Positions 325 through 20,428 of a DNA stretch of 64,000 bases are shown one piece after another. Within the stretch, counting starts at the first letter, position 1, and every line of letters starts with the position of its first letter. Where the stretch lies: positions 1 through 64,000 of the forward strand of contig CAIYRR010000072.1 of assembly GCA_903928745.1 (NCBI GenBank), written 5' to 3'. The position numbers and the translations under genes were made by a program. The notes under the pieces were generated by a model. It made no database searches. It was not told the DNA's origin and saw only the letters and a list, made by a program, of their open reading frames with translations. The stretch comes from an uncultured Actinomycetes bacterium (GTDB lineage: Bacteria; Actinomycetota; Actinomycetes; Nanopelagicales; Nanopelagicaceae).

Positions 325-353
325 TTGCACTTGCATACCCCCAGGGGTATGCT
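325..353 (+). promoter_or_regulatory. Sigma70-like promoter with embedded CsoR/CstR-type operator
   Basis: TTGCAC (325-330), 17-bp spacer, TATGCT (348-353). GCATACCCCC|AGGGGTATGC (333-352), a near-perfect 20-bp inverted repeat with a G/C tract flanked by A/T, overlaps spacer and -10. Confidence 0.6.
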
Positions 354-3499: not shown

Positions 3500-3608
3500 T
3501 AAGAACGTCCTATCTGTTATCAATCTGTTATCAATCCTTGCGCAGAGTCTACCCGTGCCTCAAAAGTGAGCAAATGTAGGGATAAAGCCCCCGTTGTATA
3601 GTTCACGC

Positions 3609-4364
3609 ATGCCAAAGAGCCTTAGGAAAATCCTCTCAGCGCTCTTGGCTCTGTCGTTTTTAGCTCTAACTCCTGCTGGATATGCCTCCCAGAAAACTAC
3701 AATCACAGTTTTTGCAGCATCTAGCCTTGCAGATAGTTTCACGTACCTTGGGAAAGCATTCGAAAAATCACATCCCGGAACATCTGTTCTTTTTTCTTTC
3801 CTGGCATCACCCAGTCTTGCTACACAGATTAATGCGGGGGCCCCGGCCGATGTCTTTGTTTCAGCATCCGGTAAAGATATTCAAAATGCCTCTGATCGAG
3901 TGCCTATTTACCAGGGCTATGTTTTTAATCGTGTAGTCCTAGCTGTACCCGTGAAGAACCCTTTCAAGATTGTGCGTATTCGCGGATTAAATACACCTGG
4001 CGTTAAATGGATTCAGTGCGCACATGAAGTGCCTTGTGGAGTGGCAGCCGACGCCGCCCTTTCATCCGATGGCACCGTGACTTCAAAGCCTGTCTCGCTC
4101 GAACCCAAATCGGCTAGCGTGATTGCCAAGCTATTGCTCGGAGAAGTAGATGCGGCAATTGTTTATCACACAGATGTTGTTAAGAATAGAAAAGCACTTA
4201 AGGAAATTGTCTTTACGGATCGCTTAGCTTCCTCGACGCGATATGCAATAGGTGTTGTGAGTGACACCAAACAGAAAGCCTTAGCAACGTCATTTATGGA
4301 CTATGTGCAAGCGCCTAAAGCAATCCTTTATTTGAGGCGAAGTGGCTTTGGAGTTATTTCTTGA
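3609..4364 (+). CDS. modA: Molybdate ABC transporter substrate-binding protein
   Basis: TITVFAASSLADSFTYLGKAFEKSHPGTSVLFSFLASPSLATQINAGAPADVFVSA. Confidence 0.9.
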   Translation: MPKSLRKILSALLALSFLALTPAGYASQKTTITVFAASSLADSFTYLGKAFEKSHPGTSVLFSFLASPSLATQINAGAPADVFVSASGKDIQNASDRVPIYQGYVFNRVVLAVPVKNPFKIVRIRGLNTPGVKWIQCAHEVPCGVAADAALSSDGTVTSKPVSLEPKSASVIAKLLLGEVDAAIVYHTDVVKNRKALKEIVFTDRLASSTRYAIGVVSDTKQKALATSFMDYVQAPKAILYLRRSGFGVIS

Positions 4365-5152
4365 CCTTGCATAAGGTTGATAAATTAACTGGCACGTTAG
4401 CCGTCCTTGCAAGTTTTTTCATTATTGCCCCCATGTTTGCTCTCTTAGTAAAAGTCCCTTGGGGATCTTTCTTACATGACCTTGCACAAACACAATCTAA
4501 GCAAGCGATCACATTGGCGCTCTGGACTTCGATTCTTGCCGCGTGCATCTGTGTTCTCTTGGGCGTTCCATTGGCATGGGTGTTGGCACGTGGAAATGAA
4601 CGAGTAACAAATATTCTGCGGCCAATAGTTTTAGCCCCAATCGTTTTACCGCCTACCGTTGCCGGGATCGCATTACTGGCGCTATTTGGTAGAGATGGAC
4701 TCCTTGGTAAGTATCTTTACCAAGCAACAGGGTGGTCAGTTCCTTTCACGAGTATTGCCGTTGTCATCACCGGGGTGTTTGTGGGAATGCCCTTTCTGGC
4801 ATTGATTGTGGAATCAAACTTTCGCCATATTCCCAAGGATTTAGAAGATGCAGCGGTGACTGATCGTGCATCACGTCGTGAAGTATTTTCACTTGTTGCG
4901 TTGCCACAGATTCGAAATGGAATAGCCACTGGTGCCGTGCTCGCTTGGGCGCGTGCGTTGGGGGAGTTTGGCGCCACCATGATGTTTGCAGGTTCATTAC
5001 CCGGGCGTACTCAAACTTGGGCGATGGAGGTTTATATGCAGATGGATTTGGATATGGGGACGGCCTACACACTCAGCGCAGTCATGTTGGTGATTGCTGT
5101 TGCCGTTGTATTTGCTCTTCGTAAACCACTCACGCAGGCATTTTCCTCATGA
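4361..5152 (+). CDS. modB: Molybdate ABC transporter permease
   Basis: PIVLPPTVAGIALLALFGRDGLLG and RALGEFGATMMFAGSLPGRTQT; overlaps modA by 4 bp. Confidence 0.9.
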   Translation: MTLHKVDKLTGTLAVLASFFIIAPMFALLVKVPWGSFLHDLAQTQSKQAITLALWTSILAACICVLLGVPLAWVLARGNERVTNILRPIVLAPIVLPPTVAGIALLALFGRDGLLGKYLYQATGWSVPFTSIAVVITGVFVGMPFLALIVESNFRHIPKDLEDAAVTDRASRREVFSLVALPQIRNGIATGAVLAWARALGEFGATMMFAGSLPGRTQTWAMEVYMQMDLDMGTAYTLSAVMLVIAVAVVFALRKPLTQAFSS

Positions 5153-6294
5153 AGATCGCGCCTTTGGTCGAACCTGGCCCAGAGCTCAGCGCAAGTGAAA
5201 TACGCAGGTATGCCCGACATCTTGTCCTGCCAGGAGTGGGAAATCTTGGACAGAGACGATTAGCAAATGCAAAAGTGCTCTGCGTCGGAGCAGGTGGATT
5301 GGGCTCGCCCGTGTTGATGTATTTAGCGGCTGCGGGAGTTGGGACACTAGGTGTAGTTGATTTTGATCTTGTCGATGAAAGTAATTTGCAAAGGCAAGTT
5401 ATTCATGGCCAGGCAGATATTGGCATGAAGAAAGTAAAGAGCGCTGAAGCGAAAATCGCGGAGATCAATCCGTATGTGAAAGTTAATACTCACGATTTTC
5501 GATTGAATCGCGAAAATGTATTGGACCTTTTCAGCCAATACGATCTCATTGTTGATGGGACGGATAATTTCTCGACGCGTTACATGATTAACGATGCGTG
5601 TGTCATAACAAATAAGCCATGCGTGTGGGGCTCTGTTTATAGATTTGATGGGCAGGTAAGTGTTTTCTGGCCCTCACACGGCCCTTGCTACCGTTGCCTG
5701 CACCCCGTGCCACCGGCGCAAGGACTTGTTCCCAATTGCGCAGAAGGCGGAGTCTTAGGTTCGCTCTGCGCGAGCATTGGATCCATACAGACAACGGAGA
5801 CAATCAAGATCATTACCGGGACTGGTACGGCGCTCATCGGATCGGTACTTATTTATGATGGTTTAGAGACCACATTCGACAAGATTACTGTTTCGAAAGA
5901 TCCCTCATGCGTCATGTGCGCAGATCCTTCAAGTGCACAATTGCTCGATGACTATGACGAATTTTGCGGGACACTGACGTACTCAAGTGAAATCACAGCA
6001 GAGGAATTAGCAGGTCGAATTCGAAGCGGTGAGAATTTTCAACTCGTCGATGTTCGTGAGCCGCACGAGTGGAATGAAGGTTACATAGAAGGAGCTGTGT
6101 TGATTCCGCAGGCTGAATTTTATGATGGACGAGCTCAGGAAAAGATTTCAAAGAAATTACCCGTTGTCTTGTACTGTCATTTAGGTATTCGATCTGCGCA
6201 TGCCCTGAGCGCGCTCAAACACAGTGGTTATGAAAATGCATCACATCTCTTAGGTGGGATTGTTTCTTGGGATGAGTACATGAGAAATGGCTAG
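5149..6294 (+). CDS. moeZ: MoeB/MoeZ-type adenylyltransferase with C-terminal rhodanese domain
   Basis: RYARHLVLPGVGNLGQRRLANAKVLCVGAGGLGSPVLMYLAAAGVGTLGVVDFD; C-terminal LVDVREPHEWNEGYIEGAVLIPQ...LYCHLGIRSAHAL. Confidence 0.9.
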   Translation: MKIAPLVEPGPELSASEIRRYARHLVLPGVGNLGQRRLANAKVLCVGAGGLGSPVLMYLAAAGVGTLGVVDFDLVDESNLQRQVIHGQADIGMKKVKSAEAKIAEINPYVKVNTHDFRLNRENVLDLFSQYDLIVDGTDNFSTRYMINDACVITNKPCVWGSVYRFDGQVSVFWPSHGPCYRCLHPVPPAQGLVPNCAEGGVLGSLCASIGSIQTTETIKIITGTGTALIGSVLIYDGLETTFDKITVSKDPSCVMCADPSSAQLLDDYDEFCGTLTYSSEITAEELAGRIRSGENFQLVDVREPHEWNEGYIEGAVLIPQAEFYDGRAQEKISKKLPVVLYCHLGIRSAHALSALKHSGYENASHLLGGIVSWDEYMRNG

Positions 6295-6853
6295 CAATTG
6301 GAGTGCGCTCATCTTGTCGGGTGGAACAAGTGGGAGATTTGGTTCTGATAAGTCAGAGGCAAAACTAGAAGGTCGTGCGTTGATAGATCTCGTTCTTGAC
6401 GCAATTCCTGGAGATGTTCCTGTCGTGGTCGTGGGTCCCAATCGCTTGGAATTCGATTCGCGTGTACAAGTTATTCAAGAGCAGCCGCCATTTGGTGGGC
6501 CAGTGGCAGGTATAGCTGCAGGAATTAGCCTGGTGAAAACAGAGCTTGTTGCTATCTTGGCAACGGATATGCCTTATGCGCCTTCAATTCTTCCTCTATT
6601 GATCGCGAATCTGGATGAGGAGATAGATGCGATCTTGCCGTTGGATGACAGTGGATTCCTTCAACCATTTTCTGGAATCTATCGAAGGTCTGCATTGGCT
6701 GCTGCTTTGGAAAAACTTGCCACGGTGGATGGTGAATCCATGCGCAATTTGGTGGCAGACCTTCGAGTGAAGAGTTTTGAACTTGCGGGCGATGCTCGTG
6801 CACTCTTAGATATTGATACCCAGGATGATTTGCAGAGAGAGGTCAAGGCATGA
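6287..6853 (+). CDS. mobA: Molybdenum cofactor guanylyltransferase-like protein
   Basis: ALILSGGTSGRFGSDKSEAKLEG...VVVGPNRLEF...ILATDMPYAP. Confidence 0.85.
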   Translation: MASNWSALILSGGTSGRFGSDKSEAKLEGRALIDLVLDAIPGDVPVVVVGPNRLEFDSRVQVIQEQPPFGGPVAGIAAGISLVKTELVAILATDMPYAPSILPLLIANLDEEIDAILPLDDSGFLQPFSGIYRRSALAAALEKLATVDGESMRNLVADLRVKSFELAGDARALLDIDTQDDLQREVKA

Positions 6854-8013
6854 GCCACGTATTACGCGAAGCTGAATGGTCTCTTGCACGCGAGGCAGCA
6901 GTATTGAGTGCGAAAGTTTTATCTGCCGAAACCTTGCCGCTATCTCAATGTACTGATCGGACTCTAGCTTGCGATGTTGCCGCACTCGTTGATCTTCCTA
7001 CTTATGAAACATCTGCAATGGATGGCTTTGCGGTAGCCGGGCGTGCACCGTGGAAAATTGTTGGGGATGTAAAAGCTGGTACGCCGATGCATGAAGAACT
7101 TCTCGAAGGCACAGCAGTGCGCATTGCCACCGGCGCAGTTATTCCGGCGGGAACTTTTGGCGTAATAAGGTGGGAAATTGCCGAAGTGGTAGATGGCATG
7201 CTCACTGGCGAAGTTCTAGCAAGGGGAGATATTCGACCTGCAGGAGTTGAATCTCGGAAGGGCGAAATCATCGCCCCCGTAGGAACAACTTTATCCCCGG
7301 CATGGATTGGCTTATTAGCATCTGCGGGCCATGACGAACTTCAAGTTACCCGTAGGCCGCGTGTTGAAATTATTTTGCTCGGTGATGAAATCCAACTCGA
7401 AGGAATACCGACAGATGGATTAGTCCGCGATGCATTGGGACCCCAGCTTCCTGGTTGGTTAACACGGATGGGTGCTGAAGTTGTCTCTCTAAATTACGTT
7501 GAAGATGAACTTTCATTAGTCGTTGATGCTATCGGCGAAGCCTCCCAACGTGCCGATGTAATTCTTACTACAGGCGGCACTGCAGATGGGCCGCGTGATC
7601 ATTTACATGAAGCGATTGCTCAACTAGATGGCGAAATTATTGTTGATCGCGTAAAAGTACGTCCGGGTCATCCAATGTTGTTAGCGCGCGTTGGGGGAGT
7701 ATCACTACTGGGTCTTCCTGGTAATCCGCAGTCGGCAATCGTTGCTCTCATGACTTTAGGAGCGCCAGTTATCGATTCATTGCTGGGCAGAACTGTAAAG
7801 GAGCTTGAAAAAGTAACGACCCGCAATGAGATTAAGGCTCGTGAGGATTTCACTCGATTGGTTTTGGGCAATGTGCGCGGAGGGATATTTGAGGAAGGCG
7901 AACATCTAGGTTCTGCCATGTTGCGCGGATTAGCTCATTCCTCGGGCTTTGCTGTGGCCACGCAACCCACGTGCGCAGCAGGATCTATCGTGGCGTGGTT
8001 ACCGCTTCCCTAA
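6850..8013 (+). CDS. moeA: Molybdopterin molybdotransferase MoeA
   Basis: DLPTYETSAMDGFAVAG; TTGGTADGPRDHL; VRPGHPMLLARVGGVSLLGLPGNPQSAIV. Confidence 0.93.
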   Translation: MSHVLREAEWSLAREAAVLSAKVLSAETLPLSQCTDRTLACDVAALVDLPTYETSAMDGFAVAGRAPWKIVGDVKAGTPMHEELLEGTAVRIATGAVIPAGTFGVIRWEIAEVVDGMLTGEVLARGDIRPAGVESRKGEIIAPVGTTLSPAWIGLLASAGHDELQVTRRPRVEIILLGDEIQLEGIPTDGLVRDALGPQLPGWLTRMGAEVVSLNYVEDELSLVVDAIGEASQRADVILTTGGTADGPRDHLHEAIAQLDGEIIVDRVKVRPGHPMLLARVGGVSLLGLPGNPQSAIVALMTLGAPVIDSLLGRTVKELEKVTTRNEIKAREDFTRLVLGNVRGGIFEEGEHLGSAMLRGLAHSSGFAVATQPTCAAGSIVAWLPLP

Positions 8014-8029
8014 CGTAGGATTCAGGATT

Positions 8030-8509
8030 ATGACAACTGAGAATTCATTCACACATCTAGATGACAAAGGCCAAGCCCACATGGTTGATGTCACCGATCG
8101 CGATGTCAGCGTTCGTACCGCCACTGCATCGGGCTCAGTAAAACTTTCCCACGCTGTTGTCGCACTACTGCGCGAGGGCGGAATTCCTAAAGGAGATGTG
8201 TTGGCCACTGCGCGCATCGCTGCGATCATGGGTGCCAAACGCACTCCAGATCTCATTCCTTTGTGTCATCCCATTGCACTTCACGGCGTGGATGTAGAAC
8301 TCGAAATTATTGAGTCCGGAGTTTCTATTCGCGTATCTGTGCGTACCGCAGATCGCACGGGTGTGGAAATGGAAGCGCTCACTGCTGTTTCTGTCGCGGG
8401 GCTAACGGTGATTGACATGGTGAAAGCTTTGGATCCTGGCGCATCAATGTGCGATGTTCGGGTGGAAGCTAAATCAGGTGGTCGAAATGGTGACTGGGTT
8501 CGGGATTGA
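8030..8509 (+). CDS. moaC: Cyclic pyranopterin monophosphate synthase MoaC
   Basis: FTHLDDKGQAHMVDVTDRDVSVRTATASG; TPDLIPLCHPIAL; GVEMEALTAVSVAGLTVIDMVKA. Confidence 0.95.
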   Translation: MTTENSFTHLDDKGQAHMVDVTDRDVSVRTATASGSVKLSHAVVALLREGGIPKGDVLATARIAAIMGAKRTPDLIPLCHPIALHGVDVELEIIESGVSIRVSVRTADRTGVEMEALTAVSVAGLTVIDMVKALDPGASMCDVRVEAKSGGRNGDWVRD

Positions 8510-20314: not shown

Positions 20315-20428
20315 GGTCACGAGTTCCAGGTATCAGCCCCGGCTTACTGGACGGCAACCCTCCATCGCGGCGGGGTGCTCTGGGTGAAGACCAGGTCGGC
20401 AGTTCTACTGCCCGGCAAGTGCGGAAGG
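20315..20428 (+). ncRNA. SAM-IV riboswitch upstream of metX
   Basis: GGTCACGAGTTCCAGGTATCAGCCCCGGCTTACTGGACGGCAACCCTCCATCGCGGCGGGGTGCTCTGGGTGAAGACCAGGTCGGCAGTTCTACTGCCCGGCAAGTGCGGA matches the recalled SAM-IV consensus (GGTCA..GAGT.CCAG...CGGCAACCCTCC..CGCGG.GGGGTGC..CGGGTGA.GACCAGG). Confidence 0.9.

Follow-up and report, generated by a model that had tools for sequence, protein, structure and literature searches.

A predicted CstR operator before an operon of Cys-rich mini-proteins and a methyltransferase in a small freshwater actinobacterium

The window analysed here is a stretch of 64,000 nucleotides from an uncultured actinobacterium (GenBank assembly GCA_903928745.1, contig CAIYRR010000072.1, positions 1 to 64,000 of the forward strand), and the feature under study lies close to its left end, at positions 325-353. 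The stretch opens with a gene fragment that encodes the C-terminus of a B12-dependent ribonucleotide reductase (3-179; NCBIfam NF005122, E 3.7e-15, matching the profile's last residues), and this upstream transcription unit is ended by a terminator-like hairpin on the plus strand (228-264), in which a T-rich tail comes after a stem of 17 pairs. Beyond it lies the predicted CstR operator GCATACCCC-CA-GGGGTATGC (333-352), an inverted repeat with perfect 9-nt arms (333-341 and 344-352) around a 2-nt centre (CA), the core of which (335-350; ATACC-CCCAGG-GGTAT) fits the consensus ATACCn6GGTAT exactly. The palindrome is set within a plus-strand promoter composed of a -35 box TTGCAC (325-330), read from the sequence, and a -10 box TATGCT (348-353), which the operator's right half helps to form, the two being separated by a spacer of 17 nt (331-347). 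The operator ends 55 nt before the first open reading frame, which starts at 408.

The promoter is followed by three tightly packed plus-strand genes that make up an operon at 408-1510, namely the Cys-rich mini-protein A (mini-A; 408-578, 56 aa, 5 Cys), the paralogous Cys-rich mini-protein B (mini-B; 581-727, 48 aa, 6 Cys), which is 44% identical to mini-A over residues 1-39 (E 1.1e-9), and a class I SAM-dependent methyltransferase of 260 aa (728-1510; Pfam Methyltransf_23/25/11). The methyltransferase gene starts with TTG at 728, immediately past the mini-B stop codon, and is present as a single copy in the genome, while its orthologues in relatives are found behind the mini-gene or within the cstR operon. 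A sequence-only reading of this region had described the palindrome, the two boxes with their 17-nt spacing and the Cys-rich character of the first downstream genes, and the sequence, the coordinates and the cysteine content all hold. Further along the window we observed a SAM-IV riboswitch (20315-20427, plus strand, 95.9 bits), far from the operator, and a run of ORFs (3594-8509) that, read by eye, resembles molybdate transport and molybdenum-cofactor genes and includes a ThiF/MoeB-like protein with a rhodanese-like C-terminal end (5149-6294, likewise read by eye).

The mini-proteins form a family, the alignment of 52 relatives having 13 invariant columns (M1, C2, C7, C10, K12, W15, G17, C18, G19, H21, C35, G37, and H38) and the pattern MC-x4-C-x2-C-G-K-x2-W-x-G-C-G-x-H ... 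C-x-G/C. Pfam and NCBIfam gave no match above cut-off, none of the PDB sequences matched, and a search of PHROGs returned weak matches only; a named family such as metallothionein was considered for these proteins and set aside, as no curated profile or solved structure matched. The AlphaFold2 model shows a short core of two strands plus a helix, with a pLDDT of about 86 over residues 1-40, and a Foldseek search with it gave no PDB fold match with E <0.001.

Taken alone, the palindrome carries little weight. About 3 perfect 9-nt-arm inverted repeats with a centre of 0-8 nt are expected by chance per 64 kb of similar composition, the window holds 1, and shuffled versions of the window contained 4, 0, 5, 3, and 2, so that the bare repeat is not beyond chance. 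Neither does the promoter stand out by its consensus: a promoter/terminator consensus scan did not list 325-353 at its cut-off, and for this reason the consensus match alone is not taken as evidence. It is the comparison across genomes that makes the palindrome real, as a predicted regulatory site.

The genome, a metagenome-assembled genome of 1.65 Mb that is 88% complete, contains exactly one gene of the CsoR family (DUF156/PF02583), located on another contig (C48:7031-7318) and encoding a protein of 95 aa that matches PF02583 at 75 bits (cut-off 22.8); since the assembly is incomplete, it may have missed a further DUF156 gene. The protein has two cysteines, Cys43 and Cys72, which are 29 residues apart, and four residues before Cys72, at the position where copper sensors carry a His ligand, it has an Asn, as does 7mq1. 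Its closest PDB structures by sequence are 7mq1 and 7mq2, entered under the name 'csoR', which we take to be pneumococcal CstR structures. With the NCBIfam models for RicR, FrmR, and RcnR the protein stays far short of the cut-offs; assignments as FrmR (34.7 of 133 bits for the equivalog) and as RcnR (30.1 of 138 bits) were both rejected. Neighbouring genes on its contig encode a lipoprotein rhodanese, a CoA-disulfide-reductase-rhodanese fusion, an SQR-like protein, and a thioredoxin, so that rhodanese and persulfide-handling genes adjoin the sensor gene, their control by it being judged from gene linkage and operator position. Judged by its sequence, the protein would be of the CstR type, with the fold, the two cysteines about 29 residues apart, the missing copper-ligand His, the sulfur neighbours, and an operator both in its own promoter and in that of its target.

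That shared operator is rare. The exact core TACCCCNNGGGGTA is expected about 0.09 times in a genome of 1.65 Mb and was observed 2 times, once in the promoter of the window operon and once in the promoter of the only DUF156 gene of the genome. The sequence-only reading had proposed to look for a CsoR-family regulator in the genome and for conservation of the palindrome upstream of orthologues, and both were found: the palindrome recurs in the promoter of the regulator gene itself, and the operator core stands before mini-gene orthologues in many genera. A third copy with one mismatch (C48:9397-9412) lies beside the thioredoxin gene that precedes the SQR-like gene. This one-mismatch operator (locus L094:9397-9412, and also around 8250 in L095) overlaps the thioredoxin start codon and is kept in a relative, which suggests a leaderless or an unusually repressed transcript.

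Among genomes of the same family, the exact site was present in 20/20 that have a DUF156 gene and in 0/5 that do not (n=25; Fisher p=2e-5, a value that, like the other co-occurrence p-values given here, ignores phylogeny, that is, shared ancestry). A second comparison used 80 loci chosen solely by similarity to mini-A and amounting to 535 kb in total, and these yielded 62 operator matches, whereas seven control patterns matched 0-3 times in the same sequence. Of the 80 loci, 58 had a CstR gene or a site, and 31 had a site no more than 260 bp upstream of a mini-gene; as a rule the mini-gene either follows a site or forms part of the cstR operon. In many relatives mini-A is part of an operon in the order cstR, rhodanese, CoA-disulfide reductase, mini-A, with the methyltransferase sometimes following mini-A directly (L095, L096, L097, L100, and L101), while in the species of the window and several congeners the mini-gene is separate, behind an operator copy of its own; since relatives carry mini-A inside the cstR operon, the window operon looks like a detached piece of it. 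Three genomes (G007, G017, and G021) have kept the mini-gene without cstR and without the operator, from which it follows that the function of mini-A does not strictly need CstR control; their loci (L111, L110, and L112, respectively) are natural cases of unregulated or rewired mini-gene expression.

The mini-gene also occurs on plasmids of Curtobacterium, Clavibacter, and Cnuibacter, where it adjoins or lies near genes for a rhodanese and for a protein annotated as 'metal-sensitive transcriptional regulator', and is itself unlisted as a gene in the records, the PLSDB gene tables being incomplete. On the Curtobacterium plasmid pC1a (L114:5001-5162) it stands between a DUF156 regulator and a rhodanese; the operator pattern matches twice upstream of it, and the record lists no gene at this place. 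Two genomes of one genus have two DUF156 genes close by on the same strand (L113:4224-4914, from G016, and G013:C98:22544-23471), and L113 has a site between its two genes. In some relatives, ORFs assigned by eye as DsrC/TusE-like and DsrE-like lie near the mini-gene (L098:5283-6128 and L102:4972-5508), neighbours that may further link it to sulfur relay.

The loci also inform on how the site relates to the promoter. Defining a -10-like hexamer as one with at least 4/6 matches to TATAAT, we found one at an offset of exactly 12 nt from the core start in 49/55 sites, a constancy that makes the right half-site part of the -10 box. As the TAT part of the hexamer is dictated by the operator itself, the informative base is its last T, which 36/45 sites have on the gene side vs 18/45 on the mirrored side (p=2e-4). 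Most site-to-start distances across the loci are 35-51 nt, with a median of 39, the site in the window being at 58. Of the two boxes proposed by the sequence-only reading, the -10 box is accordingly conserved across genera, while the -35 box is conserved solely within the genus, where TTGNNN recurs at an equal offset (L004-L009), and is absent from most other loci. From the geometry of operator and -10 box we infer that repression would operate by promoter occlusion.

A conserved operator of this shape does not by itself identify its signal, since some CsoR-type copper sensors recognise G/C-tract palindromes of a related kind, and CsoR and RicR sites were among those from which the consensus ATACCn6GGTAT was derived (PMC7533328). 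The site might then belong to a CsoR/RicR copper sensor, with the mini-proteins as copper-binding, metallothionein-like products, and this would agree with the membership of the regulator in the same DUF156 family, with a G/C-tract palindrome of the kind common to copper CsoR operators (PMC10318464), and with the Cys/His-rich composition of the mini-proteins. We nevertheless consider it very unlikely, as the only DUF156 protein of the genome lacks the Cys-His-Cys ligand set (His is replaced by Asn), its neighbours are sulfur-transfer and thiol-redox genes, and no copper ATPase or chaperone was seen among the ORFs of its contig. When DUF156 proteins were sorted according to which residue lies four positions ahead of the second Cys and the site was sought within 400 bp, it was found near 0/14 of the His-type (copper) proteins vs 38/63 of the His-less ones (p=3e-5). 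The sequence-only reading had left the choice between a metal- and a sulfur-stress operon; the sulfur half is borne out by the His-less two-Cys sensor and its sulfur-transfer neighbours, whereas the metal half is unsupported, and on the same grounds persulfide or sulfane sulfur is chosen over copper and nickel.

Two other explanations dispense with CstR. An unrelated repressor recognising a similar sequence is conceivable inasmuch as the genome has other regulators and binding by CstR is a prediction, yet the exact core stands solely before this operon and cstR and is lost together with cstR in relatives, and we consider such a repressor very unlikely as well. That the repeat arose by chance, or serves as an RNA hairpin with no regulator, fits the roughly 3 repeats to be expected per window; against it, the element keeps its exact sequence, its placement with respect to the -10 box, and its spacing from the start codon in different genera, and it also stands before cstR, the regulon's other member, so that we give this explanation almost no credence.

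Our preferred reading, to which we assign a probability of about 0.88, is that the palindrome is the operator of a CstR-type persulfide/sulfane-sulfur sensor, predicted to control the operon of mini-A, mini-B, and the methyltransferase. The closest precedent is the S. coelicolor sulfane-sulfur sensor, which binds ATACCn6GGTAT, is released by polysulfide, needs Cys37 and Cys66, and controls a rhodanese and a persulfide dioxygenase (PMC7533328). By this scheme, the reduced repressor would sit on the palindrome, filling the spacer and the -10 box and blocking transcription of 408-1510; as reactive sulfur species rise, Cys43 and Cys72 would become persulfidated or cross-linked and affinity for DNA would drop, and the operon would then be induced together with the sensor's own operon (cstR, rhodanese, and CoA-disulfide-reductase-rhodanese). 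The thioredoxin-SQR genes would probably be co-induced through their one-mismatch site. Binding and inducer are thus deduced from comparison of sequences, as are the roles of the encoded proteins.

For the mini-proteins, the constant gene partners suggest a role as acceptor, carrier, or buffer of sulfane sulfur between the enzymes of the predicted regulon, and the mini-proteins are most likely small thiol proteins, possibly supported by zinc, acting in this way: C7-x2-C10, C18-x2-H21, and C35-x2-H38 could bind zinc, with reactive thiols remaining. A more specific proposal, for which we would put the odds slightly below even, is that they are undescribed, widespread actinobacterial persulfide handlers, forming a dedicated small carrier or sink of sulfane sulfur that works with rhodanese and CoA-persulfide reductase under CstR, with the methyltransferase as a new partner.

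Within the known CstR class, sensor and operator are both ordinary. ScCsoR of S. coelicolor (SCO0620) is likewise an actinobacterial autoregulated DUF156 repressor whose two cysteines lie 29 residues apart, with the operator ATACCn6GGTAT and control of a rhodanese; its circuit, as described in PMC7533328, differs in having a persulfide dioxygenase and a TauE exporter and in the description naming no Cys-rich mini-protein or methyltransferase, whereas the partners in the genome studied here are the CoA-disulfide-reductase-rhodanese fusion, the SQR-like protein, and thioredoxin. CstR of Staphylococcus aureus and Enterococcus faecalis, with the cst operon, is similarly a two-Cys DUF156 sensor controlling rhodaneses. 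In E. faecalis its targets include a CoA persulfide reductase that carries a rhodanese domain at the C-terminus (PMC9405070), matching the fusion beside cstR in this genome, while in S. aureus it probably controls one operon directly (PMC5480029), unlike the window genome with its detached operon and new gene families. CsoR/RicR of Mycobacterium tuberculosis are also DUF156 repressors with a G/C-tract operator overlapping the -35/-10 region (PMC10318464), but their class has the copper-ligand His that the regulator studied here lacks, no copper genes were seen on the regulator's contig, and the His-type homologues are without the exact site.

What appears to be new is the content of the regulon, that is, the unnamed Cys-rich mini-protein family and the methyltransferase as predicted members of it; a small Cys-rich protein in CsoR/CstR regulons was not found in the open-access literature, and the family would be a newly recognised component of the CstR regulon whose role we infer from its gene partners. 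The operator and the sensor give a reliable functional handle on an unnamed protein family with members in many actinobacteria, place the mini-proteins and the methyltransferase in the predicted response to reactive sulfur, and would add small freshwater actinobacteria related to Nanopelagicaceae to the groups in which CstR control occurs.
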